From the NCBI GenBank assembly GCA_022801925.1, contig JAAWTG010000033.1, positions 1 to 32,211 on the forward strand: a stretch of DNA of 32,211 bases, written 5' to 3'. A program made the position numbers and the translations under genes. This DNA is from Clostridia bacterium (lineage in GTDB: Bacteria; Bacillota; Clostridia; RUG12999). The notes below the pieces were generated by a model that saw nothing but the letters and a program-made list of their open reading frames with translations, was not told the DNA's origin and did not search any database. Below are positions 5,036 through 25,739 of this stretch, piece after piece (positions within the stretch are counted from its first letter, which is position 1; each line of letters begins with the position of its first letter).

Positions 5036-6913
5036 TTAATTTCCGGTATCGGTTACGTCTACTTCAATTTCACTTTGTATTTCCGCGCTGTCCAGCGGCG
5101 TTATCAGCAGCCCCAACAGTTTCATCAATTCCAGACCGGTCACTTCTTCCGCACGCACCTGTAAGGTGCTTTCACCGGCGGGGAGCGAAACGGTATAGGA
5201 ATCGACTGTCGGTGTGTTCACATCCGCGCTCATCCGCACCGGCGCATGGAAAATTTCTTTTCCCGCATAGAGCAGATATGTGCCGCCGCAATCATGCATT
5301 TTGGTCATGTCAGCGGTGCCGGTAACGCCCGGCGTATGCAGAGCAAGATAGGAAACATCAATTTTTAGCTGCATTGCCCGCGGCAAGCGGATATTCCAAG
5401 TGACAAACTGTGTGGTATCCTTCCAGTGGAAAACGTAGTCTCTGTTTGTTTTGCCATCGCCATAGTGCAGTCCTGCACTGATGACAGCGTCGAAGGAACG
5501 TAAATGGAAAGGACGATCCAGTGGCATGAGAAAATCAGGTTTGGCAACAATTTCTCCATTAAATTCCACTTTCACAACGGTATCAGCCGCATCAAATTCA
5601 CCTTCCGGCAGCAGGAATTCGTGGTCATAGTAGTTCAGACGCCGCACCGGAACTTCGCGTCCGTCCACCAGCATATGCGCATTTTTAATGGTGTTACCGA
5701 GTCCGCCCAGAATCAGTTTGCGGTTTTCAGGAACATCAAAAATATGTAAATACAGCGTGTTGCCGCGCAAAGTCGTTTCGCCCCAAACCTGAGAGAACAG
5801 AGGGGAACGGCGTGTCGCATAGATACTTTCGCCGTTTTGTTTCAGCCACTCGCCGATACCGCGCAAGATAGCGGCGTCGGGTGCGTCGAAAGCGCCGTCG
5901 CCTTTGGGACCGATATTCATCAGCATGTTGCCGCCGCGCGCGGCAATTTTAGCAAGCAGACGGACAAAATGGGAGGCGGGTTTATGGGAATGGTCGAATT
6001 TGGAATAGCCATAGGATTCGTTGGTGGTGGGAATCGCCTCCCAATCGCCAATGGTGGGATATAGCTCTGCGGGGCGGTCTGCTGTGTTGAGGTAGTCTGC
6101 AAATTCACGGTAGTCTTTGTCAGCATAGTTAATAACACGGCTGTTGACGATAATGTTTTCGTCCGCTTCACGAATTGCTTTCAGAATACGCAGATTTTCT
6201 GAGGTCGGCAGCTTATGCGGCGTGTCAAACCACAGAATATCAGGATGATAGTTGTGAATCAGCTCCAGAATCTGTGGAATTGCTTTTTCATCGACATAGC
6301 GTGCCGCCTTGGCAATCCGCTCCGGATGTGTGGTGTGCCATAGTTCGCCGGGATTGGCGTGCAAATTTTTGTCGCCGCCCGGATTGTCATGTTCCCAGTC
6401 GTTGCCGGGCGCATCGGGATGTTCCCAATCAAATGCATGAGAATAGTAGCAGCCAAATTTCAGTCCGCGTTTTGTACAAGCTTCTTTTAACTGTGCAATG
6501 GGGTCAACTTTGCACTGCGTCATGCGGATATCATAGGGATACGCCTCCGATGGGAACATTGCAAAACCATCATGGTGTTTCGTTGTGATAATCATATATT
6601 TCATGCCTGCCTGTAGCGCGGCTTCCGCCCATGCATCTGCATCAAAATCACGTGCTTCAAAGGGCTTTACCAGTTCTTCCACATACTCGGATTTTGGAAT
6701 TCTGCAGGCGCGCATTAAATGTTCGCCATATCCAACCGGCGGACAATCCTTCCAAAGTCCGCCGGCAATGGAATAAACGCCCCAGTGAATAAACATGCCG
6801 AAGCGTGCATCACGCCACCATGCAAGACGGCTGTCTGTCGATTGCATGGATTTTGCCCAAAATCCTGCTGTGGCAGCCTCGACAGCCACTTGTTGCTCAT
6901 CAATTTGCTTCAT
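5036..6913 (-). CDS. GH29 alpha-L-fucosidase
   Basis: A 625-residue protein of glycoside hydrolase family 29, which removes terminal alpha-L-fucose by a retaining mechanism. The N-terminal barrel shows WWRDARFGMFIHWGVYS (32-48), MIITTKHHDGFAMFPS (107-122) and CYYSHAFDW (155-163). PDILWFD (224-230) carries the catalytic Asp230. GDWEAIPTTNESYGYSK (289-305) probably carries the acid/base glutamate. RGGNMLMNIGPKGDG (326-340) closes the barrel. The C-terminal 250 residues look like beta-sandwich domains. No signal peptide is visible, so the enzyme should act in the cytoplasm on imported oligosaccharides. The start has AGGAGG seven bases upstream. It is divergent from the AraC-type regulator, which probably controls it. 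Confidence 0.92.
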   Translation of the reverse strand: MKQIDEQQVAVEAATAGFWAKSMQSTDSRLAWWRDARFGMFIHWGVYSIAGGLWKDCPPVGYGEHLMRACRIPKSEYVEELVKPFEARDFDADAWAEAALQAGMKYMIITTKHHDGFAMFPSEAYPYDIRMTQCKVDPIAQLKEACTKRGLKFGCYYSHAFDWEHPDAPGNDWEHDNPGGDKNLHANPGELWHTTHPERIAKAARYVDEKAIPQILELIHNYHPDILWFDTPHKLPTSENLRILKAIREADENIIVNSRVINYADKDYREFADYLNTADRPAELYPTIGDWEAIPTTNESYGYSKFDHSHKPASHFVRLLAKIAARGGNMLMNIGPKGDGAFDAPDAAILRGIGEWLKQNGESIYATRRSPLFSQVWGETTLRGNTLYLHIFDVPENRKLILGGLGNTIKNAHMLVDGREVPVRRLNYYDHEFLLPEGEFDAADTVVKVEFNGEIVAKPDFLMPLDRPFHLRSFDAVISAGLHYGDGKTNRDYVFHWKDTTQFVTWNIRLPRAMQLKIDVSYLALHTPGVTGTADMTKMHDCGGTYLLYAGKEIFHAPVRMSADVNTPTVDSYTVSLPAGESTLQVRAEEVTGLELMKLLGLLITPLDSAEIQSEIEVDVTDTGN

Positions 6914-7075: not shown

Positions 7076-7104
7076 TTGACAGAAAAAGTACAAGGCGGTA
7101 TAAT
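7076..7104 (+). promoter_or_regulatory. Consensus promoter of the regulator leader
   Basis: TTGACA (7076-7081), 17 bases, TATAAT (7099-7104): both boxes match the sigma-A consensus exactly. Transcription should start near 7111 and run through a structured leader toward the AraC-type regulator at 7333. Confidence 0.85.
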
Positions 7105-7110
7105 ATATGC

Positions 7111-7221
7111 ATAACGATTATGAGGTGCTTTTTGACATGAAAGAAAGTACCAAAAACTTTCCGGCGTTCTGATTTGTCCCGAAGCATGAGGGAAGTCCGC
7201 CCGCCGGCAGGACGTTTTTTT
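7111..7221 (+). ncRNA. Structured leader RNA with attenuator-like fold upstream of the AraC regulator
   Basis: The first ~110 transcribed bases fold well. A 10-bp stem (7124-7133 with 7142-7151) is followed by CCGGCG (7161-7166), which can pair with CGCCGG (7202-7207). TCCC (7177-7180) can pair with GGGA (7190-7193). GTCCGCC (7195-7201) can pair with GGC-A-GGAC (7206-7213) and is followed by seven T (7215-7221). The CCGGCG pairing and the terminator use the same bases and exclude each other, the logic of an attenuator. An 11-codon ORF, MKESTKNFPAF, occupies 7137-7172 after a GAGGTG string. No known riboswitch consensus was recognised. It could instead be a short independent sRNA. Confidence 0.5.
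7195..7221 (+). terminator. Terminator-like hairpin in the regulator leader
   Basis: GTCCGCC (7195-7201) and GGCAGGAC (7206-7213) form a GC-rich stem with one bulged A, then seven T at 7215-7221. It lies between the consensus promoter and the regulator gene, so it would limit read-through into that gene. Confidence 0.7.
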
Positions 7222-7332
7222 ATTTGTTGCAGCTTTAATGTTCTAAAGTAAGGAACCGAAGTCGGACTACTGTTAGGTGTTTTGACAGAATAATGATATA
7301 CCGGAGAAAATATTGAGGGAGGGGAGAGAAAA

Positions 7333-9630
7333 ATGCGTCAAAAAACAAGTATCCCGCGAGATTTTCTGCAAGTGTTTGTCCGTTTTATCATTCCCTATCT
7401 CGGCGTGATGTTAATTCCGATTATCACGGTGTTTTTAGCAAATCAGGCGATTGTCCGTCAATATAAAGAGGATACGCTGGGGTCCTATGAGATTGTACTG
7501 CAAAACAACATGGAGTTGATTGACAACCAGCTCAGCCAAATTGAAGAAGTTGTGGACAGCATGTTGATGAACGCGGAAATGGCGGATTTTTTCTATCGGG
7601 ACGCGGGTAATGTGACAAAGCTGATGGACATGCAGCGGCTGCTGAATTCCTATTCTTTTGATGAGAATTGGGTGAAAAATGTTTATTTATACCATCAGCC
7701 GCTGGACGTTGTGATTGACAAAGCGGGAATTTACCGCGGCGCAGATACCTATTATGGCAATGGGTTGGTGATTGACCGCGTGGCGGAAGAAACATGGGCG
7801 GCGGCGCTGCAAAGCGGCGATTGGCGGCGCGGATACCGCCCGGCGCAGCAAATGCTGGTGAATGACAAAAACTGCAATGCCATTACCTATACGCAATCGG
7901 CGCCGCTGCTCGCTTCCGGCGTGATGCGCGGACAGGTGAATGTCATCATTGACAGCCGCGAACTGATGAGTTTGTTTGACAGTCTGCTGGGCGGCAACCA
8001 GGGCGCGCTGTATATTTTGGACGATAAAAACGAACTGCTGCTTTGCTCCGACCAAAAACATCGGGATTTTATTTTGGAACATTTGCAGCAGCTAGAGGGA
8101 GACACCTTGCAGTCGGAATACAAAGTGGACGGCAGAAGCATGTATCTGATGAAACAGACCAGCGCAGGCAATGGCTGGCAGGTGGTACTGCTGATGCCAA
8201 AAGCAGTGGTGCTGGAAAAAGTGCGATTCATTAACGCATTGCTGCTGTTGATTTATACATTAACTGTGCTGGCAGGTATGGCGGTATGTATCTATATCAC
8301 CTATAAACGCAGCAAAGAGTTCCACCGGCTAGCGGGTTCCATCGGAGAAAAGCTGACAGAGAAATTTTCGCTGAAAAATTTGAAACAAACGGAGTTTTCC
8401 CTTTTGCAGGAAGGTGTATCGGACTTAATTTCGGCCAACGAGTCCTTTCGCAGTCAAATTGAGGAGCAGCGGGGATATATAGAGTCCAAAGTGATTGACG
8501 GGCTTTTGCATGGCGAATATAAAGAAGAAACAGAAGCGCGCGCGGCACTGGAAAAGAACAACATGACGCTGGGCGGCGCATGTCAGGCCGTTTTGCTGAT
8601 TCGATTGGGCAAGGAATACCGTATGCAGATTGGCGGGCGCAGCGGCAAAGAATTTGTGAAAGACAATTTATACAGCATTATTGAGAACTATTGTTATATC
8701 TGTGACGCAGGCGCGCGCGGCGTGGCGGTGCTGCTGTCCCTTGACGAAACGGGAGAGGCGGCGAAAATACAGGTGGCGGCGGTGGTGTCGCATATTGAAA
8801 CTGCGCTGAGTTATCCCTATGATATTCCCATGGTATTCGGGGCGGGACGACCGGCACAGCGGCTCGTGGAAATTGCAGACGGATTCCGGCAGGCGCGCGA
8901 AGTTGTGGAATACAATGCGATTGGGCACAGGAAAAGCGTTTTGTGGTACGACGATTTACCGCAGGAGGGCAATGTGTTCTATTATCCGCTCGCGCTGGAA
9001 ACGCGGTTGTATAACTATGCCATTGTCGGCAACTATGAAGAAGTGGTGCAGACACTGGACGAGATTTATCATGAAAATTTCCTGAGCAGAACGCTGTCGG
9101 CGGATATGGTGGAACAACTCACGCAGGAAATCACGTCCACCATTATCAAAGTGCAGGACGCGCTGCATCTCGGCGGCGGAGCGGAAGCGGCAATTGATAT
9201 TCCGGCGCCGGACGACGGGCGGTCCATCACAGATGTGTTTGAACAAATGGGTGGGATTCTGAAACAGTTGTGCAGCGCGGCAGCGCAACAAAAGAAAAGC
9301 AAAAGTGCTGTAATTATGGAACGGGTACGACAATATATTGCTCAGCACTATAATGACAATAAGCTGTCACTGACGCAGCTTTCCGTTGAATTCAATTTGA
9401 ATGAAAAATATCTTTCCAGCTGTTTCAAAGAAGAAACAGGAGAGAATTTTTCCACCTATTTGGAAGGGCTGCGTATCAAACAGGCATGTCGGTTGATTGA
9501 GGAAGGGACGCACAAAATTGGAGAAATTTCCGCCATGGTGGGGTATGCCAATGACGTGACATTCCGGCGTGCGTTTAAGAAAAAAATGGGCGTTAGCCCA
9601 AGTGGATACCATGGCGCGCCCAAAAACTGA
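7333..9630 (+). CDS. Membrane-anchored AraC-family sensor-regulator
   Basis: A 765-residue protein with one membrane segment near residues 16-37 (FVRFIIPYLGVMLIPIITVF), an extracytoplasmic sensor region at about 38-297 resembling Cache-type domains, and a second membrane segment near 298-322 (LLLLIYTLTVLAGMAVCIYI). A cytoplasmic middle region follows, then a C-terminal AraC-type double helix-turn-helix at about 660-761 (LSLTQLSVEFNLNEKYLSSCF, then IGEISAMVGYANDVTFRRAFK). This is a one-protein signal transducer common in Firmicutes beside sugar-binding protein genes, where an extracellular ligand signal controls transcription from the membrane. A GGGAGGGGAG ribosome site precedes the ATG. It sits between the fucosidase and the SLH operon and probably regulates both. 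The ligand is unknown. Confidence 0.9.
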   Translation: MRQKTSIPRDFLQVFVRFIIPYLGVMLIPIITVFLANQAIVRQYKEDTLGSYEIVLQNNMELIDNQLSQIEEVVDSMLMNAEMADFFYRDAGNVTKLMDMQRLLNSYSFDENWVKNVYLYHQPLDVVIDKAGIYRGADTYYGNGLVIDRVAEETWAAALQSGDWRRGYRPAQQMLVNDKNCNAITYTQSAPLLASGVMRGQVNVIIDSRELMSLFDSLLGGNQGALYILDDKNELLLCSDQKHRDFILEHLQQLEGDTLQSEYKVDGRSMYLMKQTSAGNGWQVVLLMPKAVVLEKVRFINALLLLIYTLTVLAGMAVCIYITYKRSKEFHRLAGSIGEKLTEKFSLKNLKQTEFSLLQEGVSDLISANESFRSQIEEQRGYIESKVIDGLLHGEYKEETEARAALEKNNMTLGGACQAVLLIRLGKEYRMQIGGRSGKEFVKDNLYSIIENYCYICDAGARGVAVLLSLDETGEAAKIQVAAVVSHIETALSYPYDIPMVFGAGRPAQRLVEIADGFRQAREVVEYNAIGHRKSVLWYDDLPQEGNVFYYPLALETRLYNYAIVGNYEEVVQTLDEIYHENFLSRTLSADMVEQLTQEITSTIIKVQDALHLGGGAEAAIDIPAPDDGRSITDVFEQMGGILKQLCSAAAQQKKSKSAVIMERVRQYIAQHYNDNKLSLTQLSVEFNLNEKYLSSCFKEETGENFSTYLEGLRIKQACRLIEEGTHKIGEISAMVGYANDVTFRRAFKKKMGVSPSGYHGAPKN

Positions 9631-11461: not shown

Positions 11462-14400
11462 ATGAAAAAAGGGATTGGATTCATTTTATGTATAGCGCTT
11501 TTGTCAGGAATGTTTTTCCTGCCGGCGGCAGCTGCGGAGGAAAACTATGCGCTGGGAAAACCGGCGACGACAAACAGCGTTTATGCGGACGATGCAAAAT
11601 GGAGTGCGGGAGCAGCATTTGACGGCGATGCTTCCACCCGTTGGGCGTCTAAAGCGGGCGAGACGGAATATTGGATTCAGGTGGACTTGGAACAAACGCG
11701 ATCCATTAACAAGATGACCTTCCAACAATATCAGTCGCGCGTGCTGAAATATTCCGTAGAAGTGTCGGCGGACAATTTGGTTTGGACGACTGCGGCGGAA
11801 GGCGACAGCATGGGTGTGAATAAGGAGATTACGTTTCCAAAAGCAGATGCGAGATATGTGCGGTTCAATATATTGGAATGGAGTGCGGAACCCACTTTTT
11901 ACGAAATCACTGTATCGGGCGGAACGGAAGCAGCCATGACGACAACGGGGAATTTGGCGTTGAAACGTCCGGTGACAGCGAGCAGCGAACACTCCGCAAC
12001 CTATGACGCTTCCAAAATAGTGGATGGGAAAATGGATACACGCTGGGCAGCATTTTCCTCAGAAGGTGCGCCGGATGCGGATTGCCGCTGGATTAACATT
12101 GACCTTGGCGCAGTGAAACCGATTAACCAAATGAAAATTTATGAATTTTCCGCACGTATCCAAGATTATAAAATTATGGGTTCAGCGGACGGCGAAACAT
12201 GGAATGAACTGAAAAGCGGAACGCTTTCGGGAAACAATAAAAACACAACGCTGGAGTTTCCTGTGGCATGTGTGCGCTATGTTAAGCTGGAAATCTATCA
12301 ATATACCGACCACCCCACCATTTGGGAAATTGAACTCTATTGTACAAGTGCGGCAGGAGATTATTTGCAATATTATCAATTTGCGGATTTTGTGAATGCT
12401 TCCGTACTCACAGACCAACCGACCGACGCCATCACCGGAAATTTGAATATGCCGCTGCCGAACAGCGTGACAGCGGGAAGCTTGACGGCAGATGTGACAT
12501 GGGAAAGTGATAAACCCGATGTGATAAATGCGCAGACCGGCGAAGTGACGCGGCAGGCAGAGGATACGCCGGTGACGATTACGGCGCGGGCGGCGATTCG
12601 GGGCATGACAGAGGTGCCACCGGTGGAGATTTCTTTCACCGTGACTGTCAAAGCGGCAGCGGCGGACATTCCGGTTTTAGAAGTATTGCAGGAGCCTGTC
12701 ACGGTAGAGACAGAGCCTTGGACAGCGGATTTGAAACAGCAGAGTGGATTTGATTTGAACGCGCCTTTGGCGGCAGAACTGGACGTGTCCGCACAAAATG
12801 CGCAGAACATGACAGTATCCCTTGGACAGGAAAATGCGCCGTTTGCGCAGATTCAGTTCACAGGAGATACCTATAGCATAGCGTATGGTTCTCCCATGCG
12901 GCTGTGGCGCAAAGAAGGCAATTATCCTGCGCAGGGGGCGCATGTGAAATTCCGGTTTGAAATCAACCGCATGACAGGCACAATGGATGCGCTGGTAGAT
13001 GAGGGGACAGGTTGGAAAACCGCATTACATAACGTGAAAGGTATGAATACCATTTCCGCGCTGGATAAAATATGGGCGGCGTTTGGCAGCGGCAGCTTGA
13101 GCGTCCATAGCGCGCAGGTGCGCATGACGCCGAAACTTGCAGTGGAATTGTTAAAAGAACAGTTTGATTTTACAAAACTATCCGATGAAAAATCGATGTG
13201 TGTCTCCAAAGACCTCACGCTGCCAAAGACCTTGCTTGCCGCGCCGGCACAGTGGCAGAGCAGCAACGAAGCGGCAATCAATACTGAAACGGGCGCGGTG
13301 GACACGACGCAGTCCGGTATCACAACATTAACCGTGACAGCAGCGTTTGGTAGTGAAGTGTTTGAAAAATCCTTCCGCGTTATGTTTGGTGGCGGTAACC
13401 TGTTGGCGGGCGCGGCGGTGGAAACAACCGGAAAAAGCATATCCGGCGGCGGAATAGAAAACCTGCTGGATGAGGATATGGATACCTCCTATCTCACCAG
13501 AAGCACAAAACCCTATGAAATCACTGTTGATTTTCCACAGGAAACAGTGGTATCGCATTTGACGCTGTTTGAGGCGTCGAAAAGCACCGGAAAAATTACG
13601 AAATTCAGCATCGAAGCGAAGAATGAGATCGGCGATTATGAACAGATTGCACAAGGTACGGAAATCGGAGAAGAATTGACGGTGCCCTGCGCTTTGCGCG
13701 AGACAACACAGCTTAAAATCAAGGTAGAGGCATTTGAAAAAGGCAGCACAGGGTTTGCCGAAATCACAGGAAGCTATGCACCGACAGCAGCACAGGTGTT
13801 GGAGGGAGACTTAGCGGTGATTGGAATGTATATGCAGGCATTCATAGACATGAACGTGTTGCCGGCAATCGGCATCTTTGGTTCAGAACTCACCTGGACG
13901 AGCAGCAACACAGATTTAATGAAACTGGAACGGCAGGAAGATGTATATATATTGAAACCAACATACGGCGCACAGACAAAAGTCATCAATTTGCGCGTTG
14001 ATGCACGGTATCAACAGGCAAGTGACATGAGAGCCTATACGGTTGGCGTTGAAGGAACAGGCGGCAGCGTTGGAGCGCCGGGCGGAAGTAACGGCGGAAC
14101 GAGCGGCAGCAGCGGCGGAGGCGGTGGAAACCGCGGCGGAGGTTCCTCCGGCGGAACGGGTGGGATTGGTATGCAGGTGCCTATCGTCAGTGATACCAAT
14201 GTGAAACCGGTACCGCTGCCCACGCCGGACACGAAAGCGGAACTGAATGGACATTGGGCGCAGACAGAACTGGGAGAAATAGTAGACCGCGGCATTTTAC
14301 AAGGCGACGGTACTTCCCTGCGGCTGGCGGACGGCGTGACGCGTGCCGAATTTGCCGCAATGCTTTCGCGGACACTGCAACTGAGTGCGGCGGACTATCG

Positions 14401-14764
14401 ACCGACATTCGGTGATGTTCCGGCGGACGCATGGTATGCCGGCGTTGTTTTGGCGGCGGCGGACGCGGGACTGATGGAAGGCAGCGGCGGAATGCTGCGG
14501 CCCGAAGATCCCATCACGCGGGAGGAAATGGCAAAAATTGTGGTGAAAGCCTATGCCTACCGTGGGAAAACACTGCCGGAGACAGAGGAAAGCGCAGCGT
14601 TTACAGACGAAGAGACAATTTCCGGCTGGGCGCGGGAAACGGTTGCTCAGGCGGTGAAATTAGGACTCATACAAGGTTATGAAACAGGAGAGTTTTTGCC
14701 GCAGGCAGGATTGTTGCGGGAACAGGCGGCGGTGGTACTCTACCGCTTGATGGAAATACTGTAA
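11462..14764 (+). CDS. Exported discoidin/Ig-like protein with C-terminal SLH anchor
   Basis: 1100 residues. Signal peptide 1-25 (cleavage near AAA-EE). Two F5/8 type C (discoidin, CBM32-like) domains lie at about 27-152 and 160-295, each with the N-A-L-G-K/R-P start and the RYVRF/RYVKLE plus EI-E/T-V/L ending. An atrophied Ig-like domain with WESDKPDVINAQTGEVTR is at 300-398, then a beta-rich region 405-560, another Ig-like unit at 565-645, a degenerate discoidin at 646-772 and a further beta unit. A Gly/Ser linker (865-905) leads to three SLH repeats (about 925-1095) that should bind cell-wall-linked secondary polymer. No catalytic domain is recognisable, so I read it as a carbohydrate-binding surface protein, though an unrecognised enzyme in 405-640 is not excluded. 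Confidence 0.85.
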   Translation: MKKGIGFILCIALLSGMFFLPAAAAEENYALGKPATTNSVYADDAKWSAGAAFDGDASTRWASKAGETEYWIQVDLEQTRSINKMTFQQYQSRVLKYSVEVSADNLVWTTAAEGDSMGVNKEITFPKADARYVRFNILEWSAEPTFYEITVSGGTEAAMTTTGNLALKRPVTASSEHSATYDASKIVDGKMDTRWAAFSSEGAPDADCRWINIDLGAVKPINQMKIYEFSARIQDYKIMGSADGETWNELKSGTLSGNNKNTTLEFPVACVRYVKLEIYQYTDHPTIWEIELYCTSAAGDYLQYYQFADFVNASVLTDQPTDAITGNLNMPLPNSVTAGSLTADVTWESDKPDVINAQTGEVTRQAEDTPVTITARAAIRGMTEVPPVEISFTVTVKAAAADIPVLEVLQEPVTVETEPWTADLKQQSGFDLNAPLAAELDVSAQNAQNMTVSLGQENAPFAQIQFTGDTYSIAYGSPMRLWRKEGNYPAQGAHVKFRFEINRMTGTMDALVDEGTGWKTALHNVKGMNTISALDKIWAAFGSGSLSVHSAQVRMTPKLAVELLKEQFDFTKLSDEKSMCVSKDLTLPKTLLAAPAQWQSSNEAAINTETGAVDTTQSGITTLTVTAAFGSEVFEKSFRVMFGGGNLLAGAAVETTGKSISGGGIENLLDEDMDTSYLTRSTKPYEITVDFPQETVVSHLTLFEASKSTGKITKFSIEAKNEIGDYEQIAQGTEIGEELTVPCALRETTQLKIKVEAFEKGSTGFAEITGSYAPTAAQVLEGDLAVIGMYMQAFIDMNVLPAIGIFGSELTWTSSNTDLMKLERQEDVYILKPTYGAQTKVINLRVDARYQQASDMRAYTVGVEGTGGSVGAPGGSNGGTSGSSGGGGGNRGGGSSGGTGGIGMQVPIVSDTNVKPVPLPTPDTKAELNGHWAQTELGEIVDRGILQGDGTSLRLADGVTRAEFAAMLSRTLQLSAADYRPTFGDVPADAWYAGVVLAAADAGLMEGSGGMLRPEDPITREEMAKIVVKAYAYRGKTLPETEESAAFTDEETISGWARETVAQAVKLGLIQGYETGEFLPQAGLLREQAAVVLYRLMEIL

Positions 14765-14792
14765 AAAGGGAGAGAAAGGTAGGGTTAAAACT

Positions 14793-17456
14793 ATGAAACA
14801 TATCAAATGGATTGTGATGATACTGACCGCTTGCATGTTGCTCGGCGTAGGAGGATTCGCACAGGCAGCGACAGAAAAAGCATTGTTTGACGTCACCTCG
14901 CTGGGCATTATTCAGGGAGATGAAAACGGAGATTATAAACTGGATTCGCCGCTGACGCGCGCGGAATTTATGGAAGCGCTGCTGAAATTTTTGCAATATG
15001 ACGAAGCGGCGAAGATTGCGGATGTGCAGAAACATTTCACAGACGTTTCCTCAGACGCATGGTATGCACGTGCAGTATCGTTTGGCGTACAGATGGATTT
15101 GATGAACGGCTATGGCGACGGTACATTCGGACCAGACAATGCCATCAGCTTGGAAGAAGCAGTGAAAACCGTGGTGGTGTCGCTGGGATATGGCGCAGTA
15201 GCAAACGGACGCGGCGGATATCCGACAGGGCACATGCTGGTTGCGGCGGAAAACGGACTGCTGAAAAATATTTCCCAGGAAAACAGTTTTACCCGCGGCG
15301 ACTTGGTGGAACTGCTGTATAATGCACTGGATATGGATTTGATGGTGCAGTCTGTACAGGACGGACAGATGATTTACGAAGTGGCGAAAGGGGAAACCAT
15401 TCGCGGACGCCATATGAAAGAAAACAGCGATGAAACAACCTATAAAGCAAAAGGTATCGTATCTGCCAATGCAGATACTTGGCTGGACGTGCCGGTGCAA
15501 AACATGAAAGACAACGAAGTGATGATTGACGGCATTATCTACCGCGTAGGCACAACAAATGCTGCGGCGCTGCTGGGACAGGAAGTGGATTTCTATGCCG
15601 TGCGTGGCGAGGACGACCGCTATACGCTGGTGAGTGTGAAACCGACGCGCAACAACCACGTTGTCTCGTTGCGGGAGAACGATATCAAAAGTACTACGTT
15701 GTCTCAGATAAAATATTATGGTGAAAATGAACGGGAAGAACGATTTGATATTGCTTTGCAGCCGATGATTGTGAAAAACGGCGTCATCATTAAAATTTAT
15801 ACAGAAAACGCGTTGCAATTTGAAAAAGGTTCCATCACCTTGATTGACAATTCCGGAGACGAAGCGGCAGACGTGATTTTTATTGACGAATACCAAAACG
15901 TACAGGTAGAAGAAGTGCGCGAAAACTTGATTTACCTTATGCCCGGCTCCGAATTGGACGGCAGCCGCCTTATCAATGTGGACAAAGAAAATAAAGACGT
16001 GAAATATCATATCAAAGACAAAGACGGTAAAACGCTGGAAGTGAAAGAGATTCAAAAAGAAGACATCATCAGCGTCACCGTTGACGAATATAAGACACTG
16101 TATAGCTTGGTGGTGTGCCGCGAGACAGTGGAAGGAACTATAGATGAAATCACAGAGGACGGTATGGTGATTGGCGCAGCTTTCTATGAAGCGGACGACG
16201 CAGTGATAGCCGGCGTCAAAGTCGGCGATTCTGTCACAGCATATCTGGATTGGCGCGGCGAAGTAGCGCAGACGAAGGAACTTTCCTCTTCCATGCTCTA
16301 TGGCTACATCGCGCAGATTGGACAGCAAGGCGGATTCGGAAACACGCAAATTAAAATGGTAACAGGAAAACTGATTCAAGAAGACATTGAAACAAACGAG
16401 CAAAATAAAGACGACAAAAACGAAATCAAGGTTTTGGTGTGCGAAAACGAAAAAGTGGAAATCTTGGATGTGGCGGACAAAGTTTCGTTTAACGGACGGA
16501 GCATTGGCGCAAGCAGTTTGGCACAGCAAATTGACCCCACGCGCGGACTGGCGGTAAAATATACATTGGGTGCGGACGGCAAAGTTCGTTCCATTGAATC
16601 GGCCGAGCTGCGCGGCGGCGAAGTGGGACAGAAAATCAAATATGACGTGCGCGACAAAGTGTTCGGCGGTATCACCAACATTCAGAGTTTCGCCATTGAT
16701 GCAAACACGAAAGTAATCTGTCTGCCGGAAACCGTAAACAATGATGAAGATTACATGGTGCAGGTGCGTATTGACAACACAGACAGTTCACGGCGGTTTA
16801 ATGCGCAGGGCTATGAATATGACCCGATAACCAAAAAAGTGAAATTGCTGGTGGTGACGGAAGCCATGGACGCAAATCAGGCGTCTAACGTTGACATCAA
16901 CAAAGCAAAGCTGGGCATGGTGAAAGAATTACGAAAATATACAGACGAAAGCATGGAAACAAAATATAAAGTCATCATTGTGGAGGAAAGCGGCGAAAAA
17001 ACCTATGAAACCGTTAATATTATTGACAAAAACCGCGCCATCACCGATTTGAAAAAAGGCGACCTGATTTATTTTGTGAAAAACGGTCAGGACAAAATTG
17101 AAAACGTGAGAAAGATTTATGCGTTCGGCGAGGGCGTTGGCACTTTCTACCGGTATCAGGGAACGGATAACGAACAAATCAGCGGATATTTGCAGAGTCT
17201 CGACTTTGACGAAATTGATGTGATGAAAAACATATTGGTGATAAAAGCGACCATTGATTTAGACGGCAGCAGTGAAGCGATTGGCATTGCACAGCGTAAC
17301 GCACCGCCGACCTTCCTCTATGAAGAAGCAACGAAGGAAATCCGTCCGGCGGCGCTGCGGGAAGCGATTCCGGTAGGTTCCGACGGCAGCGGCGCAGACC
17401 GGCTGTTTATCATCATGCCGAATGACGACGTGAAAGCTTGCGTCATTGTCCGCTGA
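14793..17456 (+). CDS. Exported protein with N-terminal SLH repeats and a large unknown region
   Basis: 887 residues. Signal peptide about 1-26 (MKHIKWIVMILTACMLLGVG, ending AQAA). Three SLH repeats follow directly: about 29-70 (LGIIQGDENGDYKLDSPLTR), 83-125 (FTDVSSDAWYARAVSFGVQM) and 146-187. The remaining ~700 residues are rich in short beta strands, with many D-G-x and V-K/E patterns, and match no family I know. One segment, YKAKGIVSANADTWLDVP at about 217, resembles the start of a repeating beta module. The SLH repeats are N-terminal here, unlike in the three sister proteins of the operon. It could be a structural S-layer or scaffold protein or a new binding protein. The start codon is the first in frame after the signal-compatible region, with GGGAGAGAAAGG upstream. 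Confidence 0.8.
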   Translation: MKHIKWIVMILTACMLLGVGGFAQAATEKALFDVTSLGIIQGDENGDYKLDSPLTRAEFMEALLKFLQYDEAAKIADVQKHFTDVSSDAWYARAVSFGVQMDLMNGYGDGTFGPDNAISLEEAVKTVVVSLGYGAVANGRGGYPTGHMLVAAENGLLKNISQENSFTRGDLVELLYNALDMDLMVQSVQDGQMIYEVAKGETIRGRHMKENSDETTYKAKGIVSANADTWLDVPVQNMKDNEVMIDGIIYRVGTTNAAALLGQEVDFYAVRGEDDRYTLVSVKPTRNNHVVSLRENDIKSTTLSQIKYYGENEREERFDIALQPMIVKNGVIIKIYTENALQFEKGSITLIDNSGDEAADVIFIDEYQNVQVEEVRENLIYLMPGSELDGSRLINVDKENKDVKYHIKDKDGKTLEVKEIQKEDIISVTVDEYKTLYSLVVCRETVEGTIDEITEDGMVIGAAFYEADDAVIAGVKVGDSVTAYLDWRGEVAQTKELSSSMLYGYIAQIGQQGGFGNTQIKMVTGKLIQEDIETNEQNKDDKNEIKVLVCENEKVEILDVADKVSFNGRSIGASSLAQQIDPTRGLAVKYTLGADGKVRSIESAELRGGEVGQKIKYDVRDKVFGGITNIQSFAIDANTKVICLPETVNNDEDYMVQVRIDNTDSSRRFNAQGYEYDPITKKVKLLVVTEAMDANQASNVDINKAKLGMVKELRKYTDESMETKYKVIIVEESGEKTYETVNIIDKNRAITDLKKGDLIYFVKNGQDKIENVRKIYAFGEGVGTFYRYQGTDNEQISGYLQSLDFDEIDVMKNILVIKATIDLDGSSEAIGIAQRNAPPTFLYEEATKEIRPAALREAIPVGSDGSGADRLFIIMPNDDVKACVIVR

Positions 17457-17479
17457 CGCGGAGAAAGGATGGGGAAGCA

Positions 17480-20400
17480 ATGAACAGGAAACGGTTAGAG
17501 GCACTGTTATTGACGTTTATGCTGATGCTTGGACTTGCGGTAGTTCCGCAGGCAGGGCTTGCGGCGGACGAGAATTTGGCACCAAGCGCCGCGGCGATTA
17601 CCAGCAGCGACTTCAATTCAGGTTTCGGCAAAGAAAAACTAAATGACAAAATCACCTCCGGCGCAAACAATATGCGTTGGACGACTGACTGGAGCGTTGC
17701 GGCAAACGCTATTGGTCAGTGGTGCGGCGTGGAATTTGATGCGCCGACAAAAATAGATAAAATTGTTTTTTATGAATATGATTCCAGAATCACGGAATAT
17801 AAAGTGGAATATATGGACGCAAGCGGCGCATGGAATACTGTGCAGAAGGACGGCGCAGCGCTTGCGAATCAGACAAAAGAGGCAAAAGAAACGGTGAATT
17901 CGGCGCATTCCGTTGCCAATACCGTGACATTTGACGCGGTGGAAGCAAAAGCAGTCCGGATCTATATTGTGAATGTGGGAGCAAAAGCCGGTGCGAGTAT
18001 CTGGGAATTTGAAGTATATAATACATCAGTCATCACAGCAGATACCAACTTGGCGCTGCGCGGCACGGGCGTTGCGGATACGACAAAGTCAACCACAGAT
18101 TCACGCTTTTTGGCGGCAAACCTGAATGACGGTAGCACTTCCGGCAATTCCCGCTGGTCGTCCAACTGGAATCTGAGCATGGCAGACGTTGTGGGTGTGT
18201 GGGTAGGTATTCAATTTTCAGAAGCTATTGCGTTTGATAAAATTACGATAAAGGAATTCCAAGGTCGTGTGACAAAATTTATCATAGAAGTATCAGACGA
18301 TGGAGAAAATTGGACAGCGGTGAAACAGAGCGGACAGGAAATGTCCGTGCAGGAAAAAGAATATCAAAAAACCTGCACAAACAGTCTGCGTAGTTATGAC
18401 ATCAGCTTTGATCGCGTGAAAGTAGCCTATGTCCGCTATCGTATTGCGGAAGTGGGCGAGGCGGCGCCCAGCATCTGGGAAATTGAGGTATATGACAGTC
18501 TGGCGGGCGCACCGTTTGAAGAAGCGGAGGACGAAGCAGCGTTTCAGGCGGACGTGGACAGCGTGACGGAAGCGTCTTTGTTGGGAAACAATCCGAATGC
18601 GCAGAATATCACAGAAGATTTGACTTTGACTGCCTCACCGATGCCGAACGGAACACGGTTGGTTTGGTCGGTTGTCAGCGGCGGCGAATGGATTGATAAT
18701 AAAGGAAAAGTGACGCGTCCGGCAGCGGATAGCGCAGACCAGACGGTGCAGCTAAAAGCAGCGTTTACCAGTCCGGGCGGCACTTATACAGATGAAAAAA
18801 CGTTTACCTTTACGGTTTTAAAACAGGACGCAGGATTGATAGAAGAACAATTTCAGCAGGATATTGGAAGTGTGACGGAAGCCTATCTGTTAGGCGCGAA
18901 TCCGGACGCAGAGCATGTGCAATGGAGTTTGAATCTGCCGGTCAGCCCCTTGCAGGGTGGTACCACCGTGGCATGGAGAGTGACAAGCGGAACGGCAATT
19001 GCGGAAAACGGAAAGGTGACACGTCCGGAAACGGAAGCGCAGCAAGTAACGCTGCAAGCGGCATTCACCAAAGCGGGCGCGGCAGAAGCGTCAGAAACAC
19101 GCGATTTCACCTTCACGGTTTTGCCGGACGAAAAAGCAGTTTGGAAACTGGTGGAAAACGTGAAAGTGGAGGATCCGCGCGGCGCGTCCACCTATACGAT
19201 TACACAGATTACAGACGGTATCTCATCCTCCGGCGCGAAGAATGGCGGCGTGCAGTTCGGACAGCTGACAAACAATGAAGTGCCAAGTACCAATCGCCCC
19301 GATATGCGGCTGAATTTTGCAGATAAAATCAAACCGGGCAAAAAATACTATGTGGAAATGACGCTACAAGCGGATATGAAAAAAGGTGAAGCGCGTGTTA
19401 TTGTGCTAAACAGCACAAATGGCGAAGGAGCTTTGTTCATTTTCCGCTCCAGCAATACGCTGGGACTGGCGGCGAACAATGGCAGCGGTCGAAACTGGAT
19501 TGATAGTGAAGTAAAGATTAACCACACGCATGGCAAAGAGGAAACCATTGGCATCTATTATGACACGGGGACAGGGGCATTCCAGCATGTCAGCGGCGGC
19601 AAACTTGCTTCCCAGAAAACATATAAACCGTCCTACGGCAGCGGTATCGGCGGCGTACAGGTGAGTTATCAAGGCAAAGAAGGCGATAAAGACGCGTATA
19701 TCGTTACCAAAGGAATGAAAGTCTATGAATATGACGCGGACTATGCGGCGCAGATTGAGGCAGAATTCAGCGCACTGAGCGCGGCAGACCTCACGCAGCA
19801 GATTCCGGAAATGATAACAGGAGATCTCACGCTTCCATCGGCATTGCCCTGCGGCGTACCCATTCATTGGGAATCTAGTATGCCGGACGTGATAGGAACA
19901 GACGGAACGGTGACAAGACCGGAGGACGCGGAAAAAACAGTACGGCTCACGGCAAAAATTGACGAGACGGGACTTTCTCTTTCCAAGACCTTTGATTTCA
20001 CTGTCTTGTGGACAGGGGATGCGCGGATTGGATTCACGGAAGATGTTGCGCTTGTGACCTATGAGACATTAACTGCGCAGGAGCCGGATAAGCTGACAGA
20101 GAGCTTAACAATGCCATTCTCGCCGTTGCCGAACGGAACAACGGTGACTTGGACGTCCGATGATACGACAGTGCTGTCGGCAGAGGGCGTAGTGACGCGT
20201 CCGGCAGGCAGAAACCACCCTGTGACGCTGACGGCAAAATTCCAAAACGGCGAACTGTCTGCGGAAAAGACTTTCCAGTTCACGGTTTTGGCAGAGGGAG
20301 ACCTGCTGGAAAACATGGCGGCAGACGCGCGTCCTTCGGCGAATGTTGCGGCGCTGGAAGGCAGTATTGTTGCAGTAACAGACGGAGATTATGAAACCGC

Positions 20401-21628
20401 GTGGACTGTGGCGGACCAAAATCCGGCGGTGACGCTGGACTTGGGCAGCGCAAAATTGCTCACGCACGCTGTGATTTATGCGGAGGGCAATATTCAGAAT
20501 GCTGTTTTGGAAGTATCAAACGATAATATAAACTATACAAAAGCGGCGCAGTGGAACGCTTTGGCATATGGACAGGAAATTCAATTCCCGCTCACAGACG
20601 CACGTTATATCCGTCTTAATATGACGCAGCAAGACGAGACAGCTGTGAAGATATATGAAATAGAATTATATTCCATGCCATCAGACGAGGAACGCGTGCA
20701 GGCAGATGTGAAAGCGTTTACCTACACCAATCCCAAAGTGGTAACAGCGGACATCATACTGCCCACAGCGACAAAATACGGCAGTACGCTGGAATGGTCG
20801 TCCGACAACGCGGCGGCTCTGGACGCGCAGGGTCATGTAACGCGGCAGAGCGGCGACCAAAATGTGACGCTGACTGCAACGTTCCGCAGCGGCGATAAAT
20901 CGGAAACCGTCACGGTATATCACACGGTCAAAGGAACGAAACCGGCTGCCGGTCAGAGTCCCGGCGGCGGTGGAGGTGGTGGCGGCGGTTCCGTCTCCGG
21001 CGGCAGCGGCGGTGCAGGAATGCAGGTGCCGGTGATTCAGCCGGAAAATACGGTTCGACCGCAGCCACAGCCGCAAGAGACGCGGTTCTATGATGTGGAA
21101 ACGCAGCGTTGGTCTTATCCCTATATTGAACGGCTGGCGCAGCAAGGCATTGTAAATGGCAGCGGCGGCGCGTTTGACCCTGAAGGTCATTTGACGCGGG
21201 AACAGCTTGTGAAATTGCTGGTTACGGCACTTAAACTGGACATTGGTACACAAAACACAACGTTTGCCGACGTGGCGGCGGGTGAGTGGTACAGCCCCTA
21301 TATCGCGGCGGCGGCACAAGCAGGCATTGTCAGCGGTATCAGTGAAACGGAATTTGGCGTAGGAGAATACGTCAGCAGAGAAGATATGGCAACCATGATA
21401 TGCCGCGCACTGGAGAAAAGCGGTGCACAGTTCGGCAATCAGAACGCAGCAGACGTCAATTTTGCCGACAGCGCACAAATCAGCGCATATGCACAGGAAG
21501 CAGTTATAAAGTTGGCTGCGCTGGGGATTTTAAACGGTGAAAACGGCAATTTCCTGCCGGCGGACACTGCAACAAGAGAGCAAGGTGCGAAAGTCATTTG
21601 CATGGTGCTCGATAAGATAGGCAGATAA
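17480..21628 (+). CDS. Giant multi-discoidin, Ig-like and SLH surface protein
   Basis: 1382 residues from the ATG at 17480, chosen because it gives a clean signal peptide (1-29, ending GLAA-D) and has GAAAGGATGGGG upstream. A start 42 bases earlier would bury the signal. Domains: F5/8 type C at about 31-182 and 189-340; Ig-like units 352-448 and 453-548 sharing the GxVTRPxxxxxxVTLxAxFxxxG pattern; a concanavalin/laminin-G-like beta domain about 552-752; Ig-like units 755-845 and 850-938; a third discoidin 943-1066; a last Ig-like unit 1070-1150; a polyglycine linker with GGGGGGGGG at 1162-1171; and three SLH repeats 1200-1375. Probably a wall-anchored polysaccharide-binding protein. No catalytic residues recognised. 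Confidence 0.85.
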   Translation: MNRKRLEALLLTFMLMLGLAVVPQAGLAADENLAPSAAAITSSDFNSGFGKEKLNDKITSGANNMRWTTDWSVAANAIGQWCGVEFDAPTKIDKIVFYEYDSRITEYKVEYMDASGAWNTVQKDGAALANQTKEAKETVNSAHSVANTVTFDAVEAKAVRIYIVNVGAKAGASIWEFEVYNTSVITADTNLALRGTGVADTTKSTTDSRFLAANLNDGSTSGNSRWSSNWNLSMADVVGVWVGIQFSEAIAFDKITIKEFQGRVTKFIIEVSDDGENWTAVKQSGQEMSVQEKEYQKTCTNSLRSYDISFDRVKVAYVRYRIAEVGEAAPSIWEIEVYDSLAGAPFEEAEDEAAFQADVDSVTEASLLGNNPNAQNITEDLTLTASPMPNGTRLVWSVVSGGEWIDNKGKVTRPAADSADQTVQLKAAFTSPGGTYTDEKTFTFTVLKQDAGLIEEQFQQDIGSVTEAYLLGANPDAEHVQWSLNLPVSPLQGGTTVAWRVTSGTAIAENGKVTRPETEAQQVTLQAAFTKAGAAEASETRDFTFTVLPDEKAVWKLVENVKVEDPRGASTYTITQITDGISSSGAKNGGVQFGQLTNNEVPSTNRPDMRLNFADKIKPGKKYYVEMTLQADMKKGEARVIVLNSTNGEGALFIFRSSNTLGLAANNGSGRNWIDSEVKINHTHGKEETIGIYYDTGTGAFQHVSGGKLASQKTYKPSYGSGIGGVQVSYQGKEGDKDAYIVTKGMKVYEYDADYAAQIEAEFSALSAADLTQQIPEMITGDLTLPSALPCGVPIHWESSMPDVIGTDGTVTRPEDAEKTVRLTAKIDETGLSLSKTFDFTVLWTGDARIGFTEDVALVTYETLTAQEPDKLTESLTMPFSPLPNGTTVTWTSDDTTVLSAEGVVTRPAGRNHPVTLTAKFQNGELSAEKTFQFTVLAEGDLLENMAADARPSANVAALEGSIVAVTDGDYETAWTVADQNPAVTLDLGSAKLLTHAVIYAEGNIQNAVLEVSNDNINYTKAAQWNALAYGQEIQFPLTDARYIRLNMTQQDETAVKIYEIELYSMPSDEERVQADVKAFTYTNPKVVTADIILPTATKYGSTLEWSSDNAAALDAQGHVTRQSGDQNVTLTATFRSGDKSETVTVYHTVKGTKPAAGQSPGGGGGGGGGSVSGGSGGAGMQVPVIQPENTVRPQPQPQETRFYDVETQRWSYPYIERLAQQGIVNGSGGAFDPEGHLTREQLVKLLVTALKLDIGTQNTTFADVAAGEWYSPYIAAAAQAGIVSGISETEFGVGEYVSREDMATMICRALEKSGAQFGNQNAADVNFADSAQISAYAQEAVIKLAALGILNGENGNFLPADTATREQGAKVICMVLDKIGR

Positions 21629-21641
21629 GGAGAGGAAGGTA

Positions 21642-24600
21642 ATGAAAAATCATAGATGGATAGCGGCATTGCTGAGCGGTTGTATGATGGTAAGTGCGGC
21701 GGGCGCTGTCGGTGCGCAGGAGCAGGAAACTGCTCCCGCACCGGAGACGACCATGCAGCAGCTTTTGGAAAATGAGGCACTGCCGATTGCGCAGGAACCG
21801 GAGACGGAAAACAGCGTATTACCGCAGGAGAACGGTGCATCGGAGGTGGATTTGACATTGGAATCACAAGAAGCGGCGGAACAAATTCAGGCGACCTCAT
21901 TGGTGGCGCCGGATACGAGCGAAATGACGCAGGACGAATATTTTCAGTCTACCATTGACCAATATGACCAATATGACGAATTAATGCAAGACCCGCAGGT
22001 GATTCAAGACGCAGATTTCTTCGGCGTGTGGGACGGCAGCAAATGGACACGGCAGCCCTATTTTGACTATAGCTATTCTTCTGATTTGGCAGCCACAGAA
22101 GCGGCAGCCAAACAGGGCGACTATGAAGCGGCAAAAGAAGAAATTCTGGAATATTACCGCAATACGTTCAAAACACACCGCCGCGGTCTTGCTGCTGTTT
22201 CCGACAAACGCAAACGGTTGGTTGCGCAGGCGACTTTTGAAAACCTGATTAAATTGTGGAACTACGGCGAACCAGTGGAAAAATGGAATATGACAGCGGA
22301 AACGCAGACCTTTGAAGCAGATGTGCGTAAAGATGTGGAAGCGGCAATCGGCGCTGTCACCACGCAAAAAGCGTTCAATATCATTGCACTGAAAAAAGAC
22401 GGCTATGAAGCTGTGTTCGACAGCAGAGAAGCAGGTGAAACGGGACCGCGCATTGAACTGACGGTCAACGGCAACTCCAGAACCATCAAGCCCATTGCAG
22501 ACGCCACTATTATGGCGGGCGGAAACCGGACAAAAAACTATGGCGCGGAAAAAACGCTGCGTGTGGAGGAATCCTATACCTCTATCGGCACGCAGGCGGA
22601 GGTAGACGACTATACCAAACGAGCCTATCTGCTGTTTGATTTTTCCGATTTGAAACCGGGAGATTCTATTGACAGCGCGGTGCTGAAGGTAAACGGTAAA
22701 ATGGTGAAAAGCGACAATCCCACCGCCGCGCCGCAGGACCGCGTGAGCAAAGACGTCATGCTGTGGGAATCCAAAGAACTGGGCTGGAAGGAAAATGAAA
22801 TTAACTGGTCGAACCGTACTATTGATATCTTTTCCTATGACGGCGAAATGGCGCCGCATTTGAGACAAATGACCGGCAGCACCACCATTCCTTCCTGGGC
22901 GGACAACATGAATAAATGGCAGTATGCGCCCAACATTGCAAAATGCTATTTATACTATACGCAGACGGGCAGAAGCGGCGGCGAGGTCTATGCCTACCAC
23001 GCAATCCGTATGCTGATGAACACCATTGTCCGTCAAAAAGCGGCAATCGGCACAATTGATAATTGTAACGGCTGTCACAATCTGGGACAGCGGGCGAAAT
23101 ACTATCCGGAAATGATTGATATGCTGCTGCCCAGCGAATATATGACGCCGGAGGTATTCACGGCAATTTTAAAAAATGTCTGGATGACAAACGACTATCT
23201 GGTGAAAAAATGGGATAGCAGTTCGGAGGGGAACAATTTCGGTTCCCTGCAGGCGGAGGGACTGTTCAATTTAACCATTCCTTTCATGGAGTTTGCCGAC
23301 GCAAGTAAACCGGCAGCCGGTCTGTCCGACCCCAATAAACCGGGCTCTATGCAGGGCGGCTGGCTGGCGGCGGCAAAGCACCGTCTGGGTTATAAGGTCA
23401 TGAAAGATTTGTTTGACGACGGCAGTTCCATTGAAGTGGGACTGGGCTATGCAGACCTCAACCTGAACACTTTTCTGAATTCCATTAAAAATGCGGAAAT
23501 GGTCGGCATGGACGGCAAGGAACTGTTCAGCGCGGCAGAACTGGAGTTTATGGAAAAATATGCGCTGTATCTGATGAATGCCGGCACGCCGACTTGGGGC
23601 GACTGGCAGCAGGGGCACGCCTATGGACATGGCAGCAACTATGCCGGCAGATGGGGTGTGCTGAATGAACTCACCCAAAATCCCTATTTGATGTGGGCAA
23701 CATCAGACGGAAAAGAAGGAGAAAAACCGGAATATACCTCCATTGCCTATGACATTGGACGAAAGGCAATTTTGCGTTCCGATTGGGGAAAAATGAACGC
23801 AAACAATACCATTGCCATGCAAATCAACGCGGACGGCGGCGTGAAATCCCACGGTCAAAACGACGATTTGGGTCTGAATTTCTATGCCTACGGACAGCAT
23901 TTTTTGGTGGACTCGCTGTATCATAACTATACAGCAACGCTTCCCATGAACCTATACTTAAATTCCACCCGTGCGCATAACACCATTGAAATCAACGGCG
24001 TAAGCCAAAAGGGCGGACAGGGCAGCAGCGGCAGCGACCCTGCCGGAAATCCCATTGTTAACCTAACCGGCGGACAGCAGGGCAGTATGCACCCTGAAAA
24101 TCGGGAGTTTAATACCATGTATAACTTCCTGCGGGCGGAAACCGTGAACTATAAAAACAATTCCGCAGTCGGCGGCAATTTCACCAACTACCGCGATATT
24201 TTGTTTTTAAAGAATGGTTTTGCTATTGTGACAGACTATGTAAGTCCGGACAACAGCAAAGAAAATACCTATGACCAAAACTGGCATTTCCTGCCGGGTG
24301 CAGGACTGACGCTGGATCCGGTGACAAATGCCGCGACAACGCATTTTGAAGGCGCGAACCTCATTTTGGCGCCCGTGAACCAAGCGCACGCGTTTGACAA
24401 AGCGCAGCTCACGGACGGTTGGTATGCGCCAAATGCCGGAACGGAAGTGGACGCAAAATATTTGACCTATGAAAAGAAACTCAGCGGCGCAACAACGTTT
24501 AATACGGTGCTCTATCCTGTCAAAGGAGGGGAACGCAAGAGCGTGACAACGCAGAACCTCACGCTGGACGTGCCGGAGGAAACAGCCAATGCCTTCCAAA

Positions 24601-25739
24601 TGACAGTGCTGGATCAGGATACCGACAGCACGGAAAACTATACCTATTATGCAAACCGCGGCGATAACGTACAGCGGGCGGCAGGTACCTACACAACAGA
24701 CGCTGATTTGATGTTGGTGGAGAAAAAAGGAGCCGCAAATAATCAGGCGATTCTCCGCGGCGGCAACAACATTGTGGACACCGCCGCCGGAAAATATTTA
24801 ATCAAAGTGCAGGAAGGCGAAATCAAAGATTTGGGCGTACAGTGGCAGGGAAATATGATGAATGTCACGGCGGCAGATGGGCTGAAAAATGTGGATGGCA
24901 CTTGGAAAAACATTGCGATTTATACGGATAAAAACATCACGCAAGTGACCTATACAGATGAAAACGGCACGAATGTGGAAAACATTCCCTTCAAACAGGA
25001 GGGCGCGTATATCTACTTTGGAACACCATTTTTGGGAGACGATACAAAACTTCCGGATCCGGGTTCCGGCGGTAGCCAGCGACCTGTAAATCCGGACGGA
25101 GGTCATGGTACCGGTGGTAGCGGCAGCGGTAACATTGGCGGCGGTGCGGGTACACCCGGACAGGGCGGCTCCGTTATTCCAACGCCGACGTCAAAGCTGA
25201 CGGATGGCATGAAAGCGGAACTGCAAGGACACTGGGCAGAACAGGAAATTGCTCAGATGGTGGAAAATGGCATTGTCAACGGCGTGAGTGCGGATTCGCT
25301 GGGCTTGTCACAAACCACAACCCGCGCGGAATTCACGGCGTTGCTGGTGCGCGCAATGGGCTTGCCGCAGACAGGATATCACGGCGAGTTTGCTGATGTT
25401 GCGGCAGACGATTGGTATGCCGGTGTGTTTGCAGCGGCGAAAGAAAAAGGAGTGGTGCAGGGCAGCGGCGGCAACGCGAATCCGAATGCGCTGATTACTC
25501 GCGAAGAGATGGCGTGTATGCTGGTGCGTGCATATGAACTGAAAACGGCTTCTGTCGGTGCGGCGGGCAGCGATGCGTCTTTCACAGATGCAGCGGATAT
25601 TTCAGATTGGGCACGTCCAGCAGTGGCGCAGGCAAAAGAATTGGGATTGCTGAGCGGTATGGGAAACGGCGCGTTTGCACCCAAGGAAAACACCTTGCGC
25701 GAACAGGCGATTGTTGCAGTCTATCGGTTGCTGAAATAA
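21642..25739 (+). CDS. Heparinase II/III-like polysaccharide lyase with SLH anchor
   Basis: 1365 residues. Signal peptide about 1-25, then an acidic Gln/Glu-rich spacer. A DNRLRE/CBM-like insert at about 280-400 is recognised from ADATIMAGGNRTKNYG and RAYLLFDFSDL. The lyase core follows: an alpha-toroid around 420-690 with NNFGSLQAEGLFNL (531-544), and the heparinase II/III beta-sandwich at about 700-1010. The latter shows GRKAILRSDWG, KSHGQNDDLGLNFYAYGQHF (735-754, containing the His and Asp of the family HxxxD-like motif) and STRAHNTIEINGVSQ (775-789). A Gly/Ser linker (near 1150-1180) and three SLH repeats close the protein. These lyases cleave uronic-acid polysaccharides by beta-elimination; the exact PL family and substrate cannot be assigned. 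It is the last gene of the operon, 13 bases after the previous one, and is followed by a terminator. Confidence 0.88.
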   Translation: MKNHRWIAALLSGCMMVSAAGAVGAQEQETAPAPETTMQQLLENEALPIAQEPETENSVLPQENGASEVDLTLESQEAAEQIQATSLVAPDTSEMTQDEYFQSTIDQYDQYDELMQDPQVIQDADFFGVWDGSKWTRQPYFDYSYSSDLAATEAAAKQGDYEAAKEEILEYYRNTFKTHRRGLAAVSDKRKRLVAQATFENLIKLWNYGEPVEKWNMTAETQTFEADVRKDVEAAIGAVTTQKAFNIIALKKDGYEAVFDSREAGETGPRIELTVNGNSRTIKPIADATIMAGGNRTKNYGAEKTLRVEESYTSIGTQAEVDDYTKRAYLLFDFSDLKPGDSIDSAVLKVNGKMVKSDNPTAAPQDRVSKDVMLWESKELGWKENEINWSNRTIDIFSYDGEMAPHLRQMTGSTTIPSWADNMNKWQYAPNIAKCYLYYTQTGRSGGEVYAYHAIRMLMNTIVRQKAAIGTIDNCNGCHNLGQRAKYYPEMIDMLLPSEYMTPEVFTAILKNVWMTNDYLVKKWDSSSEGNNFGSLQAEGLFNLTIPFMEFADASKPAAGLSDPNKPGSMQGGWLAAAKHRLGYKVMKDLFDDGSSIEVGLGYADLNLNTFLNSIKNAEMVGMDGKELFSAAELEFMEKYALYLMNAGTPTWGDWQQGHAYGHGSNYAGRWGVLNELTQNPYLMWATSDGKEGEKPEYTSIAYDIGRKAILRSDWGKMNANNTIAMQINADGGVKSHGQNDDLGLNFYAYGQHFLVDSLYHNYTATLPMNLYLNSTRAHNTIEINGVSQKGGQGSSGSDPAGNPIVNLTGGQQGSMHPENREFNTMYNFLRAETVNYKNNSAVGGNFTNYRDILFLKNGFAIVTDYVSPDNSKENTYDQNWHFLPGAGLTLDPVTNAATTHFEGANLILAPVNQAHAFDKAQLTDGWYAPNAGTEVDAKYLTYEKKLSGATTFNTVLYPVKGGERKSVTTQNLTLDVPEETANAFQMTVLDQDTDSTENYTYYANRGDNVQRAAGTYTTDADLMLVEKKGAANNQAILRGGNNIVDTAAGKYLIKVQEGEIKDLGVQWQGNMMNVTAADGLKNVDGTWKNIAIYTDKNITQVTYTDENGTNVENIPFKQEGAYIYFGTPFLGDDTKLPDPGSGGSQRPVNPDGGHGTGGSGSGNIGGGAGTPGQGGSVIPTPTSKLTDGMKAELQGHWAEQEIAQMVENGIVNGVSADSLGLSQTTTRAEFTALLVRAMGLPQTGYHGEFADVAADDWYAGVFAAAKEKGVVQGSGGNANPNALITREEMACMLVRAYELKTASVGAAGSDASFTDAADISDWARPAVAQAKELGLLSGMGNGAFAPKENTLREQAIVAVYRLLK

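Follow-up and report, generated by a model that had tools for sequence, protein, structure and literature searches.

Does the leader between a consensus promoter and a regulator gene in an uncultured Clostridia bacterium represent a new kind of RNA switch, or has it another origin? The window considered here is the whole stretch of DNA that was analysed, 32,211 nt long (GCA_022801925.1, contig JAAWTG010000033.1, positions 1-32,211 of the forward strand); features below are on this strand unless stated otherwise. A first-pass annotation had read the leader as an attenuator, in which a mini-ORF, an antiterminator and a terminator together control the regulator. In our analysis the best overall explanation, with a probability of roughly 0.8, is that a repeat lies between promoter and regulator and would attenuate transcription passively, with no sensing. 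A new RNA switch is less likely than unremarkable genomic debris with a possible dampening effect on the regulator gene.

The promoter, P1 (7076-7104), consists of TTGACA (7076-7081), a 17-nt spacer and TATAAT (7099-7104), and the perfect consensus initially ascribed to it is borne out with 12/12 matches. Its hexamers and spacer length are identical in the congener G001, though the intergenic DNA there is only about 81% identical, and P1 appears to be the regulator's own ancestral promoter. The regulator gene (7333-9630) encodes an AraC-type protein (Pfam HTH_18 at the C-terminus, 2.8e-18; HTH_AraC, 1.4e-10) that is probably membrane-anchored, the anchor being judged solely from hydrophobic stretches. 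Divergent from it lies an alpha-L-fucosidase-family gene (5036-6913, reverse strand; Pfam Alpha_L_fucos, 6.2e-75), which is syntenic in G001. Downstream of the regulator and of a gene for an extracellular solute-binding protein, positions 11462-25739 hold a row of genes for very large secreted proteins bearing SLH and F5/8-type C domains, which we take to be a probable surface glycan-degradation locus.

The leader itself contains the elements of an attenuator. Just 3′ of the −10 box, the repeat copy described below opens with a small palindrome, CATAA-CGA-TTATG (7110-7122). It is followed by hairpin 1 (7124-7151), the 10-bp stem of the original description, in which GGTGCTTTTT (7124-7133) pairs with AGAAAGTACC (7142-7151). 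The mini-ORF MKESTKNFPAF (7137-7172; ATG...TGA, 11 codons) is likewise present, with CCGGCG (7161-7166) in its codons as claimed. Further downstream, a terminator-like hairpin with a T tract (7195-7221) is formed by GTCCGCC-CGCC-GGC(A)GGAC (7195-7213) and T7 (7215-7221); its stem is bulged, with 7 bp and −10.1 kcal/mol, and the bulge is probably the reason why a simple terminator scan of the region did not list it. In competition with this hairpin, CCGGCG can pair with CGCCGG (7202-7207) over a long range (7161-7207), and in the minimum-energy fold the pairing extends to 7152-7160 with 7210-7219. The 111-nt leader is more stable than its shuffles (z −2.6; 1/200 shuffles), and the alternative fold has an advantage of 5.5 kcal/mol over the terminator fold. 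When shuffled leaders were joined to the same terminator, 13/500 matched or beat this gap, and in 325/500 some alternative was more stable than the terminator state. Hence the competing pairing is real in the sequence and goes only modestly beyond chance. An Rfam scan of the window at gathering score returned a 5S rRNA and two tRNAs only and gave no hit at the leader, in agreement with the earlier statement that no riboswitch class matches.

Comparison within the genus points to the origin of these elements. The comparison set comprised three genomes, the window's own and congeners including G001 and G002, and repeat copies were counted by pattern search. By blastn, 7125-7184 recurs at six other, unrelated places in the window's own genome (about 75-84% identical, E 0.006 to 3e-10). 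The corresponding left module has the consensus GTACTTTTTG-nngn-CAAAAAGTACCAAAAAC...GGCGTTCCGATTCGCCCC; the counts of its pattern in the three genomes are 7, 6 and 5, with a reversed control of 0. Hairpin 1 is the GTACTTTTTG...CAAAAAGTAC hairpin of this family, and the terminator-like hairpin belongs to the right module. A right-end motif, GTTCTAAAGTAAGGAACCGAAGTCGGACTACTG (7240-7274), is 83% identical to an informal consensus (E 3.5e-5) and stands at 10 other places in the window's own genome; its pattern GTAAGTAACCGGAATCGGACTACT, allowing at most 3 mismatches, occurs 11, 4 and 4 times in the three genomes, again with a reversed control of 0. Ten other copies across the genus show left and right modules with unchanged order and orientation and roughly 100-320 bp between them. 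The right half of the window copy, including the terminator hairpin, is roughly 78% identical over about 90 bp to the G000:C84 copy, and the best match of each half was reached by none of 200 shuffles. Outside the genus, the left motif was found in 0/388 genomes of the class; in the whole sample of 391, the three of this genus are the only ones with it. From blastn, pattern searches, the empty site in a congener and the shuffle test, the leader is almost certainly a degenerate copy (7110-7275), with left and right modules, of an interspersed repeat of the genus, probably old and of MITE/REP-like type.

Copies of the repeat lie beside pyrF, lepA, a MATE transporter gene, an alpha-amylase-like gene and other unrelated genes, so the copies show no tie to AraC regulators, nor to the polysaccharide loci for which such an RNA had been proposed. 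One G001 copy does have a paralogous AraC-type regulator within a few hundred bases. With 60-63% identity to the short copies (79-85% among themselves), the window copy is the most diverged of those aligned, and thus either old or a member of another subfamily. Non-coding copies scattered over unrelated loci, together with an occupied and an empty site, agree with a MITE or interspersed repeat in the broad sense; at this site neither a target-site duplication nor terminal repeats were seen, and the right border is poorly defined. A candidate target-site duplication at the right flank, an 18-point alignment with the congener's leader, was discarded as chance (218/1000 shuffles). RAYT was also discarded as mobiliser, since Y1_Tnp (PF01797) was found in 0/3 genomes of the genus and the control detected it in 5/14 known genomes.

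The empty site is seen in G001, whose regulator is 96% identical in amino acids and 94% in nucleotides and which shares with the window the divergent fucosidase gene and the promoter. There, the −10 box lies about 30-35 nt before the ribosome-binding site GGGAGGGGAGAG and the whole leader is absent, so the idea that switch and regulator are conserved together finds no support. The stretch without a counterpart in G001 measures about 200 bp and comprises the repeat plus flanking bases (roughly 7106-7314). Among 9 genomes of the order, this congener was the only one with a close orthologue of the regulator; distant AraC homologues of Paenibacillus (25-26% identity) were considered as well, and their loci show no convincing similarity to the leader.

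Such a difference could also arise if the leader were ancestral and had been lost from the congener by deletion. The strong divergence of the window copy from other copies would fit this, and some copies are indeed common to orthologous sites (C22:16780 and G001:C23:16717, with near-identical flanks). However, such a deletion would need to take out the repeat between a point just past the −10 box and one shortly before the ribosome-binding site, and the remaining promoter-gene junction would have to work and hold no recognised remnant of the repeat. The third congener has no regulator orthologue that could decide, and a single congener is not enough to distinguish insertion from loss, so insertion rests on parsimony. 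We consider an ancestral leader unlikely and regard insertion as the more probable event.

If insertion is accepted, a rival reading is that the repeat was co-opted and now works as a real attenuator. In that case the pairing of 7152-7166 with 7202-7219, which buries the T tract, would alternate with the terminator, and the states would be set by translation of the mini-ORF, by pausing of RNA polymerase or by a bound factor. Three features are compatible with this: the mutually exclusive structures with their energy gap seldom matched by shuffled leaders, the T7 tract and tight terminator, which look better than in the related G000:C84 copy (CCCGCC-TGCG-GGCGGG, then AAGGCTTTTCTT), and GAGGTG about 9 nt 5′ of the mini-ORF ATG. 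The other copies of the repeat do not support it. Hairpin 1 is a feature of the family, with 9/10 pairs formed in each of four other copies, whereas only 8-10 of 20-21 testable pairs of the antiterminator form in four other copies; the share of paired cells for the antiterminator is no better than in column shuffles (81/500), and the terminator is not kept in the short copies. Both structures of the switch described earlier as coherent exist in the sequence, but neither the pairing nor the terminator is kept in these other copies. The part assigned to the mini-ORF finds no support either. In a comparison of 21 left copies, from which two further hits were excluded as chance matches, an ATG in this register is present in the window copy only (1/21); the others read KSTKN...AFRFAP or similar, with neither ATG nor stop there, and the mini-ORF is probably a chance ORF of the window copy.

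Translation-coupled attenuators of the trp/his type also combine a promoter, a short ORF, a terminator and an overlapping alternative hairpin, and the window resembles them in all four. It differs in that MKESTKNFPAF has no run of regulatory codons, the ORF and the pairing are not conserved and the orthologue does without the leader. Moreover, GAGGTG lies largely within hairpin 1, and the antiterminator is the more stable state, so that in the absence of a trigger the switch would stay open. A co-opted attenuator is therefore quite improbable in our judgement, and the chance is equally slim that, in one species, a mobile repeat has supplied the regulator with a novel and functional terminator/antiterminator switch, which would be seen here soon after its origin. 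If this were true, an attenuator would have been built of interspersed-repeat parts while the switch-less ancestral arrangement is still found in a sister species.

Least probable is a stand-alone small RNA of about 105 nt, for which the perfect P1, the terminator at 7221 and a weak second promoter-like site for the regulator (P2, 7282-7311; TTGACA-18-GAAAAT, 10/12, a grade of which the promoter scan expects 1.2 by chance per region) could be cited, but it has no positive evidence beyond promoter and terminator, in the congener P1 directly serves the regulator and leaves no room for such an RNA, the −10 of P2 is poor and its start would fall at the ribosome-binding site, and the other copies have no such promoter and terminator.

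Passive attenuation by the repeat would proceed as follows. The repeat would have landed just 3′ of the −10 box and 5′ of the regulator's ribosome-binding site. Transcripts from P1 would now start with the hairpins of the repeat and then meet the terminator-like hairpin specific to this copy, and part of transcription would end near 7221. Expression of the regulator would be constant and lowered, with neither a metabolite nor translation of the leader being sensed. Because the promoter is conserved in the congener and a terminator stands before the regulator, some attenuation is plausible, and the proposed control of the regulator by its leader stands to this extent; the sensing switch is unsupported. 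Taken alone, we give the attenuation step about even chances. It speaks against this explanation that the competing pairing is slightly better than in most shuffled leaders, which debris in the pure sense would not predict.

Among documented systems, the nearest to ours is the Correia element that lies immediately 3′ of the mtrCDE promoter of Neisseria gonorrhoeae (PMC10969869). In both cases a short interspersed repeat lies between promoter and gene and is thus part of the leader RNA; the sequences are unrelated, and the effects there (IHF binding and RNase III cleavage) are experimental, whereas those proposed here are inferred. BOX, RUP and SPRITE of Streptococcus pneumoniae are also modular, intergenic and structured, SPRITE being terminator-like and BOX lying in the leader at trp, and BIMEs within operons can attenuate transcription (PMC3049150). 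Our repeat shares the modular structured character of the pneumococcal elements, some of which are terminator-like or in leaders, but has another sequence, and its left motif is seen in one uncultured Clostridia genus only. It resembles REP/BIME elements with RAYT (Y1) as interspersed palindromes and differs from them in sequence, in size and in the lack of a Y1_Tnp gene in the three genomes. Surveys have shown structured repeat families to be common in bacteria (PMC2267715), and our literature search on such repeats in Clostridia found no paper. The family appears to be specific to the genus and was not matched to any known family here.

Full-length copies have a further feature. After their right module come palindromes that share an invariant core, GGACAYGTGCC; in the three genomes the counts of this core are 23, 19 and 6 (reversed control 3, 2 and 3). 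The arms around this core differ by locus, yet they are complementary over 10-15 bp in 18/27 distinct cases (for example ATCTTC/GAAGAT, ATGTCC/GGACAT, AAATCG/CGATTT and AAGTCA/TGACTT), which we interpret as probable compensated variation within the repeat. Such palindromes stand at the right ends of L006, L019, L034, L046, L077, L079, L080, L085, L087, L097 and other copies. A second locus-specific palindrome (AGTCGC..GCGACT, TTTGCTT..AAGCAAA or CAGTCACTTGCGTGACTG) lies 5′ of the constant GTACTTTTTG (GTAC) hairpin in many copies, including L002, L005, L018, L019, L034 and L061 and, at 7110-7122, that of the window.

Other variation was seen among the copies. The left module of L036, L038 and L043 has a second hairpin, GCGGGGAG-TTCCGATT-CTCCCCGC, which in L036 carries GTGGGGAG/CTCCCCAC, one compensatory pair; the TTTCTGGCG subfamily and the window copy have this hairpin in degenerate form. 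The orthologous copies L004 (C22:16780) and L025 (G001:C23:16717) have TTTCTGGCG and GCTGGGGCG, respectively. The same difference is also found among copies at other sites, and conversion between copies is a possible source of it. In G002, a copy (L062:1460-1600) upstream of a MATE transporter gene starts 8 nt 3′ of TATAAT. Together with the window this makes two cases only, and a preference of the repeat for sites just past a −10 box is possible.

Our results provide a worked case of a structured interspersed repeat imitating a cis-regulatory RNA. A single genome shows promoter, hairpin, ORF and terminator, whereas the empty site of the congener and the paralogous copies undo the switch reading. 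The locus also illustrates how a regulator of glycan genes can come to be separated from its promoter by a repeat. More interesting than the window copy itself are the compensated palindromes of the family, and the analysis points to a genus-specific repeat family whose locus-specific palindromes stay paired through compensatory differences.
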